Assembly: GCA_028066335.1 (NCBI GenBank)
Contig: JALCBQ010000007.1
Location: 1-45,888, forward strand
Direction of reading: 5' to 3'
Source of the DNA: Pirellulaceae bacterium
GTDB taxonomy: Bacteria; Planctomycetota; Planctomycetia; Pirellulales; Pirellulaceae
Length of the DNA stretch: 45,888 nucleotides
Numbering within the stretch: position 1 is the stretch's first letter; every line of letters starts with the position of its first letter. Positions 75-11,159 of this stretch are shown piece by piece. Under the pieces are notes generated by a model. That model did no database searches. It had not been told where the DNA came from and saw nothing but the letters and a program-made list of their open reading frames with translations. Made by a program: the position numbers and the translations under genes.

Positions 75-1043
75 TTGCATCAGGGGAGGACTGTCGAAAG
101 GACTGGCAAAATAGTCCTTCTTAAAACCGACCGAGTCCTTGAGGGGACTCCCGTCGAAGTCGGTGATTTTATCTATCTCAAACAACCAAATGGTGAAATC
201 GAAATTCCCAAGAGCCAGATTGAGGCGATTTTTAATACCTTTGCTGAAACCTACCACTATCAACTCCAACATATTAACCTCAATGACCAACAAGAGCAGC
301 TCGACCTTTTTTCCTGGTGCCTTCAATATAACCAGCTCTCACTTGCCCAGCAACATCTTCTCGTCCTTCAAAGGATGCAGTGTCCCCCAGATATTATGAA
401 GCGTCTGGAATTACAAATTCAACAAGAAATACAAGTACAAAATCAACAAATTCTAAACGACCAGAACAAGAGCCAAATGACAGGTAACCAGGCGACTGCC
501 ACCGAATCCTTACCTTTGGCCCTTCAGATGGAACTCGCCCTTGAGAATCTTCCTCAAGCCGAAAAGGACGAATTTTTCCAAAGAGTCCAGCCAATTCTTT
601 TCACAAATTGTGCCCAAAGTGGTTGCCACGGATCGGCAAGCCAAAACGACTATCACCTTATACGTCCAACCCCCAATAGCCGGCCAACCTACAAACAACA
701 ACGGTACAACCTTTTCAACACCCTCAAATTTTTAAAATCAGAAGATAACAAAGAGCCCCCATTTCTTCAAAAAGCGGCCAGCGCCCACGGCCCCATGGAT
801 CAGCCCGCCTTTGCCTCACAAGGACTAAAAAAACAGCACGAGTTACTCCAAAGTTTTGGCCAAAAGATTCTCGCTCATCAAGCGACTCTCGAAAAGAGGG
901 AAGCTCAAGAAGACCAAGGTTCGGACAAAATCGAGGAAGACCATATCGACCAAAAAGATGAGTTTGATCCGAAAATTTTCAACGACAGGTATCACTCTAA
1001 AAGGAGGAACCCTCTTGAACGACTACTCATGAAACGTCGCTGA
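75..1043 (+). CDS. planctomycete conserved protein with CxxxxCH haem-like motif
   Basis: The 322-residue reading has two parts. Residues about 10-60 (KIVLLKTDRVLEGTPVEVGD, then GEIEIPKSQIEAIF) match a repeat-like N-terminal region I associate with planctomycete proteins that start with a 'note/gradient' beta segment. Residues about 165-270 carry CAQSGCHG, a CxxxxCH motif like those of planctomycete cytochrome-like proteins, followed by a typical LIRP...RYNLFNTLKFL stretch. The C-terminus is highly charged. Function is unknown; a periplasmic redox or haem role is only suggested by the motif. The start is a TTG at 75 just after an in-frame stop at 57, and no signal peptide is encoded in this frame. 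An open neighbouring frame running in from the left edge encodes a hydrophobic LPWFLLTSCTAVASG-like stretch, so the true N-terminus may be in another frame. Confidence 0.7.
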   Translation: MHQGRTVERTGKIVLLKTDRVLEGTPVEVGDFIYLKQPNGEIEIPKSQIEAIFNTFAETYHYQLQHINLNDQQEQLDLFSWCLQYNQLSLAQQHLLVLQRMQCPPDIMKRLELQIQQEIQVQNQQILNDQNKSQMTGNQATATESLPLALQMELALENLPQAEKDEFFQRVQPILFTNCAQSGCHGSASQNDYHLIRPTPNSRPTYKQQRYNLFNTLKFLKSEDNKEPPFLQKAASAHGPMDQPAFASQGLKKQHELLQSFGQKILAHQATLEKREAQEDQGSDKIEEDHIDQKDEFDPKIFNDRYHSKRRNPLERLLMKRR

Positions 1044-3777: not shown

Positions 3778-4377
3778 ATGGTTAATGCAGTAGGAGGGGG
3801 CGCAGGGTATCCACAGATGGCGCGGCAGATACGTACGGAGCGTCCTGATTTTTCAAAAGTGGATGCTGATAACAGCGGCGGCGTTTCTAAAGCCGAGTTC
3901 AAGTCGGCATTGGAGTCAAAAGGTGGTCCGGGCAAAGCCGACCGCGCAGAGGAAATTTTCAATAAGATTGATGCGGATCAAGATGGTCAGATCAGCGAGC
4001 AAGAACATGCTACCGCGCTTGAGATGCGTGAGCAGATGTCTCAACTTGGAGGTATGCGTGGCAGCCATGATATGCAGGGAATCCGCGAGCAAATCATGCA
4101 AAAGATCGATGCAGACGGTGATGGCACGATAAGTGAAGCCGAAAGGGCTGCTGGCAAAGAAAAAATGATGGAAATGAGAGCAGCCAGGCAAGCCTCTAGA
4201 AACGCAGAGGGAAGCGAGACCGACCCTGTACAGTCTCTACTAGAGATGCTGGAAGAAAACGAGTCGGAAGAGAGTAGTTCAGACGACGACTTTTCTGAAA
4301 AGCTAAGAACACTAATGCGAGAAAGGTATTCACTTCAAATCAATAGTCCTAATAGCTTAATAGAGTTAACTGCCTAG
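3778..4377 (+). CDS. EF-hand calcium-binding protein
   Basis: A 199-residue protein with three canonical 12-residue EF-hand loops: DADNSGGVSKAE at 29-40, DADQDGQISEQE at 65-76 and DADGDGTISEAE at 111-122. Each has Asp at positions 1, 3 and 5 or equivalents and Glu at 12. The first two form a natural pair; the third is followed by a charged, Met/Arg-rich helix and an acidic Glu/Ser/Asp tail. A purine-rich ribosome binding site (AAAGGGAAAGAG) precedes the ATG. There is no signal peptide or transmembrane segment, so unlike many bacterial EF-hand proteins it is not obviously exported. Probably a calcium buffer or sensor; partner unknown. It stands alone between ftsH and a long non-coding gap. Confidence 0.85.
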   Translation: MVNAVGGGAGYPQMARQIRTERPDFSKVDADNSGGVSKAEFKSALESKGGPGKADRAEEIFNKIDADQDGQISEQEHATALEMREQMSQLGGMRGSHDMQGIREQIMQKIDADGDGTISEAERAAGKEKMMEMRAARQASRNAEGSETDPVQSLLEMLEENESEESSSDDDFSEKLRTLMRERYSLQINSPNSLIELTA

Positions 4378-4994: not shown

Positions 4995-5435
4995 TCACAC
5001 ATACCGTAACTCGATAGAGTGCTTTAAAAGGAGGTCCTGTGCCAGTGGTGTTACAATGGTTCCTGTAGCCAAAACAAATCGCTTATACTCCAGATTTGCC
5101 AAGATAAAGCTCGCCGAAAGGACGGGCTTATTGAAACTTTTCTCCTGGACAATAGTACCCGCCTGTTGCCCCTGCTCTAAAGGGTTATCTTTGCAAATCG
5201 TCGTTTTGCCACAACCTTTTTGAGGGTCACTTAAAGCTTGTTCGATTTGATCGCCACCTTTATTTTCCCCGTGATTTACAGAGTTTTCTGAAGAACCTAA
5301 GACTTGACAATCGTCTTTAGAAATCACCTCATCTGTGTTCTCCAAACTGTCTACACCGAGAGAGTTTTTGATCTTTTTCAGCTCGTTAAAGACGGTCTGG
5401 AACATCTCTTTAAGATCATTTGCTTTGACTTCCAT
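4995..5435 (-). CDS. BMC-cluster protein with helix-linker-small-domain layout (possible shell/cargo adaptor)
   Basis: Not a family I can name. The 146 residues fall into three parts. Residues 5-27 form a predicted amphipathic helix with hydrophobic residues at 8, 11/12, 15/16, 19, 22 and 26, which resembles the encapsulation peptides that tether cargo to BMC shells. Residues about 28-100 are a polar, low-complexity linker rich in Asn, Asp, Ser, Gly, Glu and Gln, with a few Cys. Residues about 104-146 form a small conserved-looking domain containing VLSASFILANL and TIVTPLAQDLL, a TPxA+D-type ending that I loosely associate with BMC-locus proteins. It is the last gene of the shell cluster, 51 bases after the pentamer gene, preceded by AAGGGCA before the ATG. 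A structural adaptor or scaffold role is inference from layout and position only. Confidence 0.75.
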   Translation of the reverse strand: MEVKANDLKEMFQTVFNELKKIKNSLGVDSLENTDEVISKDDCQVLGSSENSVNHGENKGGDQIEQALSDPQKGCGKTTICKDNPLEQGQQAGTIVQEKSFNKPVLSASFILANLEYKRFVLATGTIVTPLAQDLLLKHSIELRYV

Positions 5436-5486: not shown

Positions 5487-5861
5487 TTAATTCGCTTCTT
5501 CGACCTCAGAGTGTTCGACCAAACTCGAGAACCTTAGTGAAGAAGTTTTGCTTGAAACAGCACGATAAATTGCCTCGTGTTCAAACTGAACTCGATCTAA
5601 AATACCGACGACTGCGGCATCGACAGGGCAGTTTTTAAGCTCAGGTAAAAGGTTTACCGAATTGCCCTCGCTAAGAATAACATAGTCGCCAATACCGGCC
5701 CCAAGTGAGTCGACAACGACCATCGTTTGGCCCGTTGTCCGCAGCTGAAAATTTACCTCGTAGTCGGCCTGAAGTGGTTCGACCAAAAGCAATGTCTTCC
5801 CCTCAAGCGAAGAGACTTTTGCAGAGGAAATGAGGGTCCCTGTAATTTTGGCAACTAACAT
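5487..5861 (-). CDS. BMC-P pentameric vertex shell protein (EutN/CcmL family)
   Basis: Pentamers of this family cap the vertices of microcompartments. The 124 residues start MLVAKITGTLISSAKVSSLEGK, the usual first strands. They continue with LLLVEPL, VVVDSLGAGIGDYVILSEG (the GAGxGDxV signature) and VDAAVVGILDRV, the closing strand. That core ends near residue 95, a normal length. About 30 extra residues, Ser/Glu-rich and without clear structure, follow at the C-terminus. A GAAGGAG ribosome binding site lies about 13 bases before the ATG, a rather long spacing. It sits 147 bases downstream of the second hexamer gene, and a hairpin at that hexamer gene's end could lower its expression. Confidence 0.93.
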   Translation of the reverse strand: MLVAKITGTLISSAKVSSLEGKTLLLVEPLQADYEVNFQLRTTGQTMVVVDSLGAGIGDYVILSEGNSVNLLPELKNCPVDAAVVGILDRVQFEHEAIYRAVSSKTSSLRFSSLVEHSEVEEAN

Positions 5862-6002: not shown

Positions 6003-6023
6003 GCCTTTCTACGAAAGAAAGGC
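6003..6023 (-). terminator. hairpin at the end of the second BMC-H gene (attenuator-like)
   Basis: On the minus strand GCCTTTC pairs with GAAAGGC (7 bp, 7-base loop), followed at once by TTTGTTTC. The last codons of the hexamer gene form the left arm and its TAG stop lies in the loop. It has the form of a weak intrinsic terminator placed between the hexamer and pentamer genes. Confidence 0.5.
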
Positions 6024-6281
6024 CTTAACAACCTCGGCTGTTGGACGTGGGATAACGTGGCTACCGACGAGCTCACCGACCTTTTGCGAGGCAACAATTC
6101 CAACATCAATTGCTGTACGGACGGAACCGATATCACCGTAGATAACTGTTGTTACCAGCCCATCACCGATGCCGACTCTTTTAACAACTTCAATATGAGC
6201 ACTTTTGGCCATAGCATCTGTGGCGACAACGAGCCCGGAAAGCCCTTTGGTCTCTAACAATCCTACTGCACGATCCATCAT
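6009..6281 (-). CDS. BMC-H hexameric shell protein 2 (PduA/EutM/CcmK family)
   Basis: A single-domain (90 residues) hexameric facet protein. Recognisable features are AVGLLETKGLSGLVVATDAM at residues 5-24, the pore loop VGIGDGLVTT near 37-46, and the YGDIGSVRTAIDVG helix start followed by a closing VGSHVIPRP strand. The pore loop reads GIGDG rather than the GSG-type loop of the neighbouring paralogue, so the two hexamers probably pass different metabolites. A good ribosome binding site (ATAAGGATATAA) directly precedes two tandem ATGs. Order on the minus strand is hexamer 1, hexamer 2, pentamer, unknown protein. Confidence 0.95.
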   Translation of the reverse strand: MMDRAVGLLETKGLSGLVVATDAMAKSAHIEVVKRVGIGDGLVTTVIYGDIGSVRTAIDVGIVASQKVGELVGSHVIPRPTAEVVKAFLS

Positions 6282-6434: not shown

Positions 6435-6746
6435 CTAACCTTTTTCCCAATTCGTCAATTTTTTCACAGAAATGGGCAATACAGCAGCGAGATCTTCGTC
6501 GGGGTACGGCAAAACCTGTACATTAACGACTTGACCAACTTTTGCGGCTGCTTCTGCCCCTGCGTCGGTCGCTGCCTTCACCGAGGCGACATCGCCCGTA
6601 ACGAAAACCGAAACCAAGCCACTACCAATTTTGTCCCAGCCAAGATAGCTCACCATCGCTGTTTTTAGCATGGTATCTGCTGCTTCGACCAAAGCAATAT
6701 AGCTGCGTGTTTCGATAATTCCTAACGCTTCCACTGCCTTTGGCAT
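6435..6746 (-). CDS. BMC-H hexameric shell protein 1 (PduA/EutM/CcmK family)
   Basis: First gene of the microcompartment cluster, 103 residues, one BMC domain. It shows EALGIIETRSYIALVEAADT at residues 5-24, the pore loop DKIGSGLVSV near 38-47 (KIGSG as in PduA/EutM-type hexamers), VTGDVASVKAATDAG, and a closing NVQVLPYPDEDL. A short basic tail (SVKKLTNWEKG) follows. The ribosome binding site is AAAAGGAG, 9 bases before the ATG. No BMC-T (double-domain) shell gene and no enzyme gene lies beside it. Upstream on the same strand are purN (217 bases away) and ileS. Confidence 0.95.
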   Translation of the reverse strand: MPKAVEALGIIETRSYIALVEAADTMLKTAMVSYLGWDKIGSGLVSVFVTGDVASVKAATDAGAEAAAKVGQVVNVQVLPYPDEDLAAVLPISVKKLTNWEKG

Positions 6747-6963: not shown

Positions 6964-7596
6964 TTAGCTATCCAAAAGAGTTACTTTTCGGTCGCTAACG
7001 GCAATTTTCCCCAAATAGTACCGTTGCAAGATATCAGGATAAGCACGGCACTCGACCTCAAAGACACGGGCAGCCAACGACGTTACATCATCACTTTTCA
7101 AGACCTCAACAGGGTATTGGGCAATAATCGGCCCATGGTCATATTCATTATCGACAAAGTGAATTGTGCAGCCCGTCACCTTTACTCCAAAGTCGAGAAC
7201 GGCCTGATGAACACGAAGACCGTAATACCCTTTTCCAGAAAAAGCAGGCAAAAGAGAGGGGTGAATATTGATAACCTTGTTTTTAAAATCAGAAGGAATG
7301 AGGATGTGCTGCAAAAATCCCCCCATTACGACAAGCTCAGCACCAACATTTCGGCAAGCGTCAAAGATCACCCCTGAAAAGGTTTCGGTATCTGTGGATT
7401 CCCTGCGGGAAACGATAAGTGTAGGAATATTCGCTTTCTTAGCGTAATCTAGCCCTTTGGCAGAAGCTCGGCTAGAGATAACCAATTTGATGTCGAGGTC
7501 GAGCTCGCCACGCTTTATCACTTCTAACAAGTTCCGTAATGTCGTCCCTCCTCCGGAAATCATAACGACAACGGGAAGCTTTGTCTTTCCACCCAT
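6964..7596 (-). CDS. purN: phosphoribosylglycinamide formyltransferase PurN
   Basis: Transfers a formyl group from 10-formyl-tetrahydrofolate to GAR in purine synthesis. The 210-residue length fits PurN. The N-terminal VVMISGGGTTLRNLL (10-24) is the phosphate-binding loop. VINIHPSLLPAFSGK (109-122) holds the catalytic Asn110 and His112, and DNEYDHGPII (149-158) holds the catalytic Asp. A few extra residues precede the Asp motif compared with the Escherichia coli enzyme. It begins 35 bases after the stop of ileS on the same strand, so the two are probably co-transcribed. The BMC cluster follows after 217 bases. Confidence 0.96.
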   Translation of the reverse strand: MGGKTKLPVVVMISGGGTTLRNLLEVIKRGELDLDIKLVISSRASAKGLDYAKKANIPTLIVSRRESTDTETFSGVIFDACRNVGAELVVMGGFLQHILIPSDFKNKVINIHPSLLPAFSGKGYYGLRVHQAVLDFGVKVTGCTIHFVDNEYDHGPIIAQYPVEVLKSDDVTSLAARVFEVECRAYPDILQRYYLGKIAVSDRKVTLLDS

Positions 7597-7631: not shown

Positions 7632-10600
7632 TTAAGAAACCTCGGTCGTTGCCGTTAGATTACGAACATAAAGGTGCAAAGCTGTCTCAGCAAGTTGATG
7701 CTCGGTCGAAGGGCAGTCGCCCAATGACTCAAAATGGATATCGTCTGCGAGAGTCTCTTTTTGAATATATTGGCGATTCTCTTCAATTGCTATTTTGAGC
7801 TCAGCATCCTCTGTTTTGGCGCCAATTTCGATTCGGTCTGTGAAATCACAACCAAGCTCTTTCCGGCGATCTTGGATAAGGCGGACAAGATCACGCATAT
7901 ACCCTTCTCGTTTGAGTTCAGGGGTTAATTCGGTCGACAAAATGACAACACATGCGTTCCCTTGGGCAGCAGCCCATCCCTCTTTTGCCTGTAGACGAAC
8001 CTGAATGTCGTCGGCATCGAAGTCAAAATCTTGTCCCTCAAGCGAAAGGGTAATCTTACCATTCGTATTGAGCTCTTTAAGGAGCTCTCCTCCCTCTGCC
8101 TTACCTAACAGTTCCTTCACTTTTGGCATGAGTTTCCCAACCCGAGGGCCAAGCCGCTTGAAATTCGGCTGAATTAAATACGAAATATAACGATCGGCTT
8201 CGGTTGAGTACTCGACCTCTTTGACGTTCAATTCTTCCATAACGAGGGCGTTGTGAGACTCTAGCCAATCCTGCCAACAGGGATCAGCGAGTACAACTTC
8301 AACCTTGGCAAGAGGTTGCCGGACTTTGAGCTTAGCATTCATACGGGCACTTCTACCGAGTGAGGTGATCTCTCGCATAAGTTTCATTTGTTGAGACAGC
8401 TCAACATCGACGATTTCCTTATTCGCTATCGGATAATCACAAAGATGGATGCTCGTAACTGCCTGCTCTCTGTTAAAACAACTCGTTAAGTTTTGCCATA
8501 TCGTTTCGGCCAAAAATGGGGTAAAGGGAGCGACCAGCTTCGAGACGGTAACGAGACATTCATAAAGTGTCCAGTAGGCATCTCGCTTGTCGGGTGACTC
8601 CCTGTCTTCTTGCCAGAAACGGTCGCGACTACGACGGACATACCAGTTGCTAAGTCCATCAACAAAATCAGTCAGCTGCGTTGCTGCCCCGTAATTATCG
8701 TAAGCGTCCATCCTCTCGACAACGATTTCGACAGTCCGCTGAAGCTCACTGAGAATCCAACGATCGAGTTCACCTCGTTCAGAAATAGGTCTATAAGTTG
8801 CAGCCTCTTGCAAAACCGAAGGATCGAGCTGGCCGACATCTTGGAGCAACTCGGATTCAGGGGAAAATTGATCGATATTGGCATAAATAACAAAAAAACC
8901 ATAGACGTTCCAAAGCCGTAAAATAAACTCGGGAATACTCTCTTTAATGGCTCTTTCACTATAAAGAATTGAGTTCCAAGGTGCCTGGTTTGCCATAAAA
9001 TACCATCGCAGAGCATCGGCACCGTAACTTTCAAAAATTTCTTCAGGAGAGCGATAATTCCGAAGTGACTTCGACATTTTCCCAACTTTGTGTTGGGTTT
9101 TTTTGCCATATTTCTGTCGAGCCTCCTCTTCAACAAGAAACCGTTCCTGACCATCAGGACTCTCCCACCATTCGGCTAACATAAGGCCAAGAACAATGCA
9201 GTTTTTGTAAGGATGTGGATAATCTAGTTTTTCAAGCACTTCTGCCAACTGTGCGTTCACGACATCTTTTACAGCCTCTTCTTCAGAGCCCTTTCTGCTT
9301 TCTTTGGAAAAAAGAAGGGTGCTAATAGCAAGTAAGCTGTAAAACCAGCCACGTGTTTGGTCAAGGGCCTCACTAATAAAGTCGGCTGGGAACTGCGAGA
9401 GTAGCTCTTCTTTGCCCACATGAGGATATCCCCACTGAGCAAAAGGCATAGCGCCCGAGTCGTACCAACAATCAATAACTTCTGAAACTCGTTTCATACG
9501 TCCCCCTGGAACAAATGGCGAGTCGTAGGTAACCTCATCGATATATGGCTTGTGAACCATTAGATCATCTGGGAGTTCGGGGTTTTCAGCTTTTGCCTTC
9601 TCCCATACCTCAGTCCCTGTTCGCCCAGGCTTATCAAGGAGTTCTTGATAAGAAGCGATTGCCTCCATTTGGCCACTCTCCTGACAGACCCAAATTGGCA
9701 ACGGGGTTCCCCAATATCGTTCACGAGACAAGGCCCAATCGATGTTCGATTTTAAGAAATTCCCAAAGCGTCCTTCTTTAATGTGGTCGGGTAGCCAATT
9801 GATTTTGTCATTATTGGCGAGAAGCTCCTCCTTAAAGTCAGTCGTTTTCACAAACCAACTTTCACGAGGATATTGAATCAGAGGATCGTCTTGTGCCCGC
9901 CAGCAAAACGGATAATCATGAAGATATTGTTCGTTGTGAAAAAGAACACCCCTCTCTCTAAGAGCACGTGTTAAATCTTTGTCGGCCTCCTTGACAAAAC
10001 GGCCCTCCCACTCAGACACCTGCTCATTAAAACGGCCATCTGGGCCGACAGCACAAATGAGGTCAGGGCCCCCTTCTTGATATAAAGCTTGTTCGCTGAC
10101 GAATAGCTCGTAGTCGACTTCCCCGAAAGCAGGAGCGATGTGAACAATACCTGTACCACTGTCGGTTGTTATATAGTCAGCTGAAAGAATACGCCAGTTA
10201 GCGACCTGTTTTTCGCCACTTTTCAAAAGTCCTTCTTTTCCACCTTTTTCACTGTAATAATAATCAAAAGGTGGCTGATAACACTTTCCGAGAAGCTCTT
10301 TACCTTGAAATTCTTCAACGACTTTAAGCTCCCGTTTGACCTTTGCGGCGATTGTCTCAAGAAGTGCTTTGGCAACGATGAAGTACTCGTCATTCTCTTC
10401 GTCGTAAACCTTTACATAATAGAAAGAGGCAGAAACTGCGGCGAATTGGTTGCTGGGCATTGTCCACGGAGTCGTCGTCCAAACGAGGAGACTTGTATTG
10501 GTAGGACGATTTTGCTCATCCAAGAGAGGAAATTTCACATAGATACTCGGGTCGGCGACGTTGCGATACCCCTGACCAACTTCACCACTGGAAAGAGCCG

Positions 10601-11159
10601 TTCCTCCTTGGGGCCACCACCAGACAATTTTGTGCCCTTTGTAAAGAAGGCCTCTATCAAAAAAGGTCTTAAGAGACCACCAGACCGACTCTACATAGCT
10701 TTTATGGTAGGTTACATAGGCTTCTTCGAGATCGACCCAAAAACCGAGCCGCTCTGTAAGTTGCTCCCACTCTTTCATATAGCGCCAAACACTTTTCTGA
10801 CACTGTTGAATGAAGGGTTCAACTCCGTAACTTTCAATTTCTTCTTTCGAATGGATTCCAAGCTCTTTACAAACTTCGACCTCGACCGGCAGGCCGTGAG
10901 TATCCCAGCCCGCCTTTCGCTCACAATAATACCCCCTCATTGTTTTGTAACGGGGAAAAAGATCCTTCATTGCACGTGTCAAACAATGACCAGGATGTGG
11001 TAACCCGTTTGCCGTTGGTGGCCCCTCGAAAAAGACAAATTTTGGCGACTCTCGTCGTTGAGCAAGGGAACGCTGGTAGATCGCATTCTCCTTCCAAAAT
11101 GCTAAAGTCTCTTTTTCCAGTTCAGGAAAACGAACATCATTTGCAACAGGCCGAAACAT
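7632..11159 (-). CDS. ileS: isoleucyl-tRNA synthetase
   Basis: Class I synthetase that charges tRNA-Ile. Over 1175 residues it shows the first catalytic signature GLPHPGH (HPGH at 55-58), [12 protein letters not shown], the connective editing domain with [13 protein letters not shown] and [13 protein letters not shown]-type segments, the second signature GKMSKSLRN near 690-697, and the anticodon-binding C-terminal domain. At over 1150 residues, with the motif [11 protein letters not shown], it resembles the longer eukaryote-like IleS2 group rather than the about 940-residue E. coli type; that clade call is inference. IleS2 enzymes are often less sensitive to mupirocin. AAAGGA lies 11 bases before the ATG. 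It precedes purN by 35 bases. Confidence 0.97.

Follow-up and report, generated by a model that had tools for sequence, protein, structure and literature searches.

Encapsulation peptides of microcompartments have classically been described as binders of shell hexamers, and CcmN of the beta-carboxysome carries a C-terminal peptide behind a larger, repeat-built N-terminal domain. An encapsulation peptide is defined as a terminal amphipathic helix of 15-20 residues on a flexible linker (PMC8217296). In EutQ, a shell-cargo linker with a flexible spacer, residues 9-41 associate with the shell and residues 62-99 with the encapsulation peptides of the cargo. Deletion of either stretch parts the shell from the core, where EutQ stays with the cargo when residues 9-41 are missing and with the shell when residues 62-99 are missing, and the organelle was still assembled when EutQ lacked its cupin (PMC12487888). 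Similarly, PduM mediates the binding of shell and core; it is located with the core, and without it core and shell come partly apart (PMC9132943, PMC12108088). The N-terminal helix of PduM functions as a signal sequence (PMC12108088). PduM has been stated to be without known homology outside Pdu (PMC12108088), and Pdu has been said to seemingly lack a EutQ homolog (PMC4827028).

The window (the whole stretch of 45,888 nucleotides analyzed here, contig C57) belongs to a genome of 2.9 Mb that is 96% complete, and the relatives of this genome carry planctomycete PVM (fucose/rhamnose) microcompartment loci. Four genes on the same strand form a shell cluster, in which two BMC-H genes and one BMC-P gene are followed by a gene for a protein of 146 residues, in agreement with a preliminary description that had placed the latter as the last gene of the cluster (Table 1). 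It lies downstream of the BMC-P gene at a distance of 51 nt. All four ORFs are intact, the shell proteins contain full-length domains, and the BMC-H and BMC-P genes of the cluster were the only ones found in the genome. The gene order on the minus strand is IleS-PurN-H1-H2-P1-X, where X denotes an undescribed protein whose gene separates BMC-P 2 from BMC-P 3 in the PVM loci of planctomycetes.

Table 1. Features of the shell cluster, its flanking genes, and the 146-residue protein, in window coordinates.
Feature	Position	Strand	Remarks
X ortholog (helix-linker-domain)	4995..5435	-	146 aa, ATG start; query-free profile of relatives E=5e-7
BMC-P (EutN/CcmL) vertex protein	5487..5861	-	PF03319; nearest to PVM P1
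BMC-H shell protein 2	6009..6281	-	PF00936
BMC-H shell protein 1	6435..6746	-	PF00936
PurN, ancestral PVM-locus flank	6964..7596	-	syntenic in several relatives
IleS, ancestral PVM-locus flank	7632..11159	-	syntenic in L054, L117, L118, L128; identity 62-67% (first 400 residues)
N-terminal amphipathic helix, residues 5-25	5361..5423	-	encapsulation-peptide position; AlphaFold2
Disordered acidic linker, residues 26-96	5148..5360	-	AlphaFold2 pLDDT; net charge -8
C-terminal domain, residues 97-146	4998..5147	-	homologous to PduM C-terminus, EutQ N-terminus (H1/H2), EutT N-terminus
Core motif VTPLAQD, residues 128-134	5034..5054	-	T129, P130, D134 invariant in A5; V128 also in A4

The protein was modeled with AlphaFold2 from an alignment of 20 sequences of true relatives, and three parts were distinguished. 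Residues 5-25 form a helix with block pLDDT values of 74-86, residues from about 26 to 96 form a linker whose values remained at about 46-50 over most of its length (most of residues 26-95), and residues 97-146 form a domain of alternating strands and helices with values of 95-97. The amphipathic N-terminal helix and the long disordered linker of the preliminary description were thus borne out. A folded C-terminal domain was likewise found, but it comprises about 50 residues instead of the 40 proposed and extends ten residues past the TPLAQDLL sequence that had been taken as its end.

The helix is amphipathic by its hydrophobic moment (shuffle p=0.006), and its pattern of hydrophobic and polar residues is that of the helices of its relatives (p=1e-4 in a fixed register and p=0.002 in any register). 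In contrast, no fit was observed to the PVM consensus I-V-x-E-V-x-x-R-L (PSSM shuffle p=0.28), which corrects the earlier characterization of the helix as encapsulation-peptide-like on this point. With a terminal amphipathic helix on a flexible linker, the protein has the form of an encapsulation peptide. The linker is acidic and contains few hydrophobic residues. It also includes a Cys pair in GCGKTTIC (residues 74-81, window 5193-5216), and a third Cys is at residue 43.

A Pfam search with the protein gave no match, and hence no cupin domain as in EutQ, while phmmer, run against PDB sequences, yielded nothing beyond a helix matched by chance. Searches with the predicted structure using Foldseek and VIA-align returned only common small alpha/beta arrangements, with a best Z of 5.3 and no Foldseek match at E<=0.001, and no fold relative is claimed for this reason.

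Relatives of the protein were accessible through profiles, as a single-sequence search of 98 related genomes returned nothing but the query itself. The route to X went through weak matches of the query domain to the TIGR02536 and PduM models, followed by a search of the relatives with TIGR02536. An X-domain profile built without the query retrieved it from 1,087 window ORFs at E=5e-7, with the next best match at E=1. The window protein is a short, diverged ortholog of X. The two share the place in the gene order directly after a BMC-P, the N-terminal helix, the linker, and the V-T-P-x-x-x-D domain, whereas the window protein has a helix that departs from the consensus and a linker that, at about 70 residues, exceeds those of most relatives.

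In the relatives, the PVM order is PduL-H-H-AckA-P1-AldDH-P2-X-P3-aldolase-LDH. X held its place in this order at 18 of the 20 loci first read, and 20 further loci agreed where the contigs allow. All 28 named Planctomycetota hits of X in a scan of GTDB contigs were in PVM loci and agreed with this order as well. X was found in 125 of the 135 relatives that have a BMC-P, compared with none of the 12 genomes lacking one (Fisher p=5e-12, which is not a strict probability as the genomes are related). The query was one row of the profile used for this count, and its own hit there is not independent. In G133, a match to the X profile (C18:90024-90290) did not share a contig with the listed BMC-P and may represent a satellite copy or a split locus.

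Most X proteins also have an RpiB-like C-terminal part, identified by a weak PF02502 match and folded in the model. This part is absent from the window protein and from short X proteins in several genera with full PVM loci, and the latter led us to reject the idea that the short form arose with the loss of the enzymes. Outside the planctomycetes, an X-type helix and domain carry a full RpiB in Latescibacterota (E=1e-44), away from shell genes in one annotated locus. In L168-L170 and L172-L175 of the Latescibacterota and Gemmatimonadota, an encapsulation-like helix, the linker domain, and a full RpiB were found in one protein; no shell genes were detected near these fusions, and each of the four genomes checked has three BMC-H.

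The X-domain profile extended the relationship to other microcompartments. Among 28 test proteins, which included PduMs and the E. coli eut region, it ranked the query (9e-7), E. coli PduM (8.5e-5), EutT (0.002), Klebsiella PduM (0.008), EutQ (0.03), and two more PduMs (0.3) above every control, and the rest had E values of at least 27. The PduM query used to fetch the PduM genes is 98.8% identical to an annotated PduM. In a second set of 464 ORFs from eut and cut regions of Escherichia, Klebsiella, Acetoanaerobium, Cetobacterium, and Enterococcus, the profile matched a PduL that carries the domain C-terminally (1.3e-7), a EutQ-like cupin protein of Enterococcus raffinosus (5.9e-7), a Eut-locus protein of 106 residues (5e-6), and a EutT (4.3e-5). 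The eleven best matches in this set were all BMC-operon proteins, including EutTs, EutQs, and two hypothetical proteins of Cetobacterium. Additionally, the profile had ten matches in the 9.7 Mb of four whole records, nine of them within eut, pdu, or cut loci. In the reverse direction, the NCBIfam PduM models found a short X at 1.8e-5 library-wide. When the profile of whole X was compared with one of four PduMs, the match was weak (E=0.01) but located exactly at the PduM C-terminus. The domain-profile matches to three of the four PduMs and to both enterobacterial EutQs were also weak (E from 0.008 to 0.35), and the solid connections are those to E. coli PduM, the E. raffinosus EutQ, the Acetoanaerobium proteins, and the Cetobacterium EutT.

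On these profile matches, one domain of about 45-50 residues is evidently common to accessory and linker proteins of the PVM, Pdu, Eut, and choline microcompartments. A profile derived from X thereby connects PduM and EutQ to each other, and both to EutT and the PVM protein, by a single small domain. No paper joining X, PduM, EutQ, and EutT was found in the literature searched, which included few subscription journals and does not prove priority. The Acetoanaerobium noterae eut locus contains two proteins with the domain. The PduL-type phosphotransacylase encoded at L187:6595-7497 has an encapsulation-like N-terminus and carries the linker domain C-terminally, and the following gene (L187:7485-7802) encodes a small protein with the domain and C-terminal helices, which resembles EutQ 1-99 without the cupin.

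The arrangement of the parts varies among the relatives. In EutQ, the N-terminal 45 residues or so are homologous to the C-terminal domain of the window protein, whereas the cargo-binding helices are in the middle and the cupin/acetate kinase part is C-terminal. PduM has an N-terminal signal helix of the same type, a homologous stretch in its C-terminal 45 or so residues, and a gene beside a BMC-P, but it contains a middle region where the window protein has a bare linker, and the latter scored 13.4 bits with the PduM family model, far under the curated cut-off of 50. The TIGR02536 ethanolamine utilization family matches the window protein in its C-terminal 43 residues or so, while the remainder is not shared and the score is again far under the cut-off. 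With CcmN, only the modular principle of helix, linker, and domain is shared: the peptide of CcmN is at the other end, and the sole folded domain of the window protein is a C-terminal strand/helix unit of 50 residues. The kinship to CcmN that had been proposed was rejected on the predicted fold and the location of the homology rather than on a direct alignment; the relatives are PduM, EutQ, and EutT, and according to the EutQ data the small domain is the part that faces the shell, a polarity opposite to that of CcmN (PMC12487888). The reading as a BMC adaptor was nevertheless supported in part, as the family is BMC-associated and the domain is homologous to parts of published shell-core linkers, with a different kinship and probably the opposite polarity. 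The window protein would be a minimal variant of the linker kind known from EutQ and PduM.

EutQ residues 9-41 fall within the stretch matched by the X domain. The domain of the window protein is thus homologous to the stretch holding the H1/H2 shell-binding module of EutQ, from which we infer shell binding of the window protein itself. The EutQ and PduM data, together with the PduM arrangement and bare linker of the window protein, are the grounds for proposing that the domain faces the shell and the helix the core. At slightly better than even confidence, the protein is a shell-core linker of the PVM microcompartment in a minimal form. Its C-terminal domain of about 45-50 residues would most likely dock on the lumenal side of the shell, in line with the published data on the matched stretch of EutQ, the flexible linker would span the gap between shell and core, and the N-terminal amphipathic helix would make encapsulation-peptide-type contacts with the enzyme core, as has been described for PduM. 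The binding partners, the polarity, and the continued working of the protein in this genome are what we infer. The domain would then be a short candidate module for shell docking, and the single published case, in which EutQ H1/H2 binds the shell, could become a testable rule for how shell and core are held together in several types of metabolosome.

The enzyme core of the PVM microcompartment has been lost from this locus. PduL was not found in the genome, and a genome search for the PVM aldehyde dehydrogenase returned only a partial match of 22% identity in an ORF read as ALDH7-type. The only class II aldolase domain in the genome is in a protein of 222 residues beside an acireductone-dioxygenase-like gene, which reads as the methionine-salvage enzyme MtnB and not as the PVM aldolase. 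Acetate kinase and LDH were absent from the locus, and the second and third BMC-P of PVM loci were not found in the genome, which has one BMC-P compared with three. The genes that remain follow the PVM order and adjoin IleS-PurN, an arrangement also seen in the syntenic loci of Table 1; the shell genes occupy the ancestral PVM site (IleS-PurN-H1-H2-P1-X), and the locus descends from a PVM locus. PurN was also considered as a cargo because of its adjacent gene and was rejected, since it flanks full PVM loci too. BUF loci, which are BMC loci without an aldehyde dehydrogenase (PMC8217296), similarly have shell genes and no BMC-type aldehyde dehydrogenase was found here, but the window locus differs in its visible PVM descent and in having no candidate enzymes alongside.

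The identities of H1, H2, and P1 between the window and the other genomes were 65%, 61%, and 47%, compared with 80%, 79%, and 71% among the others, a deficit of 15 to 24 percentage points. The flanking genes were not faster, with identities of 54% vs 56% for PurN and 65% vs 68% for IleS. The shell proteins diverge faster than PurN and IleS and yet remain intact, which indicates a relaxed or changed constraint. No close relative of this lineage turned up when GTDB contigs were scanned with the BMC-P. The window presents a putative linker in a genome where the shell genes have survived the loss of the enzymes, and it offers a natural test of whether a shell can be maintained or re-used without its original cargo.

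By the searches made, the genome contains no known PVM cargo that could be linked, which counts against a working linker. It is possible, if doubtful, that the locus is a decaying PVM microcompartment in a shrunken genome, where deletion began with the enzymes, and the genes for the shell and X remain open without function. The missing PduL, the weak ALDH7-type match at 22% identity, a sole class II aldolase domain of the methionine-salvage type, one BMC-P rather than three, a genome of 2.9 Mb compared with 3.3-11.7 Mb in family members, the faster divergence of the shell proteins than of PurN and IleS, and the lost consensus of the helix are all in line with decay. However, all four ORFs are intact with full-length shell-protein domains, the core motif of the domain is kept, and the loss of five enzymes from the locus with both BMC-H, one BMC-P, and X kept amounts to several separate deletions that spared the shell genes. 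Rather unlikely is a shell kept enzyme-free for a new purpose, in which the core was deleted, the linker was retained along with two types of hexamer and a single pentamer, and the helix was remodeled for a new, unlinked cargo while the shell-side domain stayed recognizable. A helix off the consensus with a domain still recognizable fits the loss of the original cargo under decay and re-use alike.

The reverse orientation, as in CcmN, would put the N-terminal helix on the shell and the C-terminal domain on a cargo protein. It would agree with the classical account of encapsulation peptides as binders of shell hexamers, and with the fusion of the domain to a full RpiB in Latescibacterota and to an RpiB-like part in planctomycetes. 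It appears improbable, as the EutQ deletions place the homologous stretch on the shell side (PMC12487888) and PduM remains with the core when shell and core separate (PMC9132943). EutT, an enzyme, carries the domain too, and the module may accordingly be a localization tag and not a linker. In another reading, the domain is not an adaptor but serves to tag or regulate encapsulated enzymes (RpiB-like, EutT, PduL), with the short form as a by-product of the loss of the enzyme part; this reading draws on the fusions to EutT, PduL, and RpiB and on the missing RpiB-like part of X in several genera. It is very improbable given that PduM is a structural protein (PMC12108088, PMC9132943), that EutQ without its cupin assembles the organelle, where the non-enzyme part matters in itself (PMC12487888), and that several genera whose PVM loci are intact retain a short X.

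Two further proteins of the window were noted by eye. Downstream of the BMC cluster and on the opposite strand, a protein of 199 residues (window 3778-4377) contains several EF-hand-like loops (e.g., DADGDGTISEAE), and the ORF at window 75-1043 contains the heme-like motif CAQSGCH (CxxxxCH).
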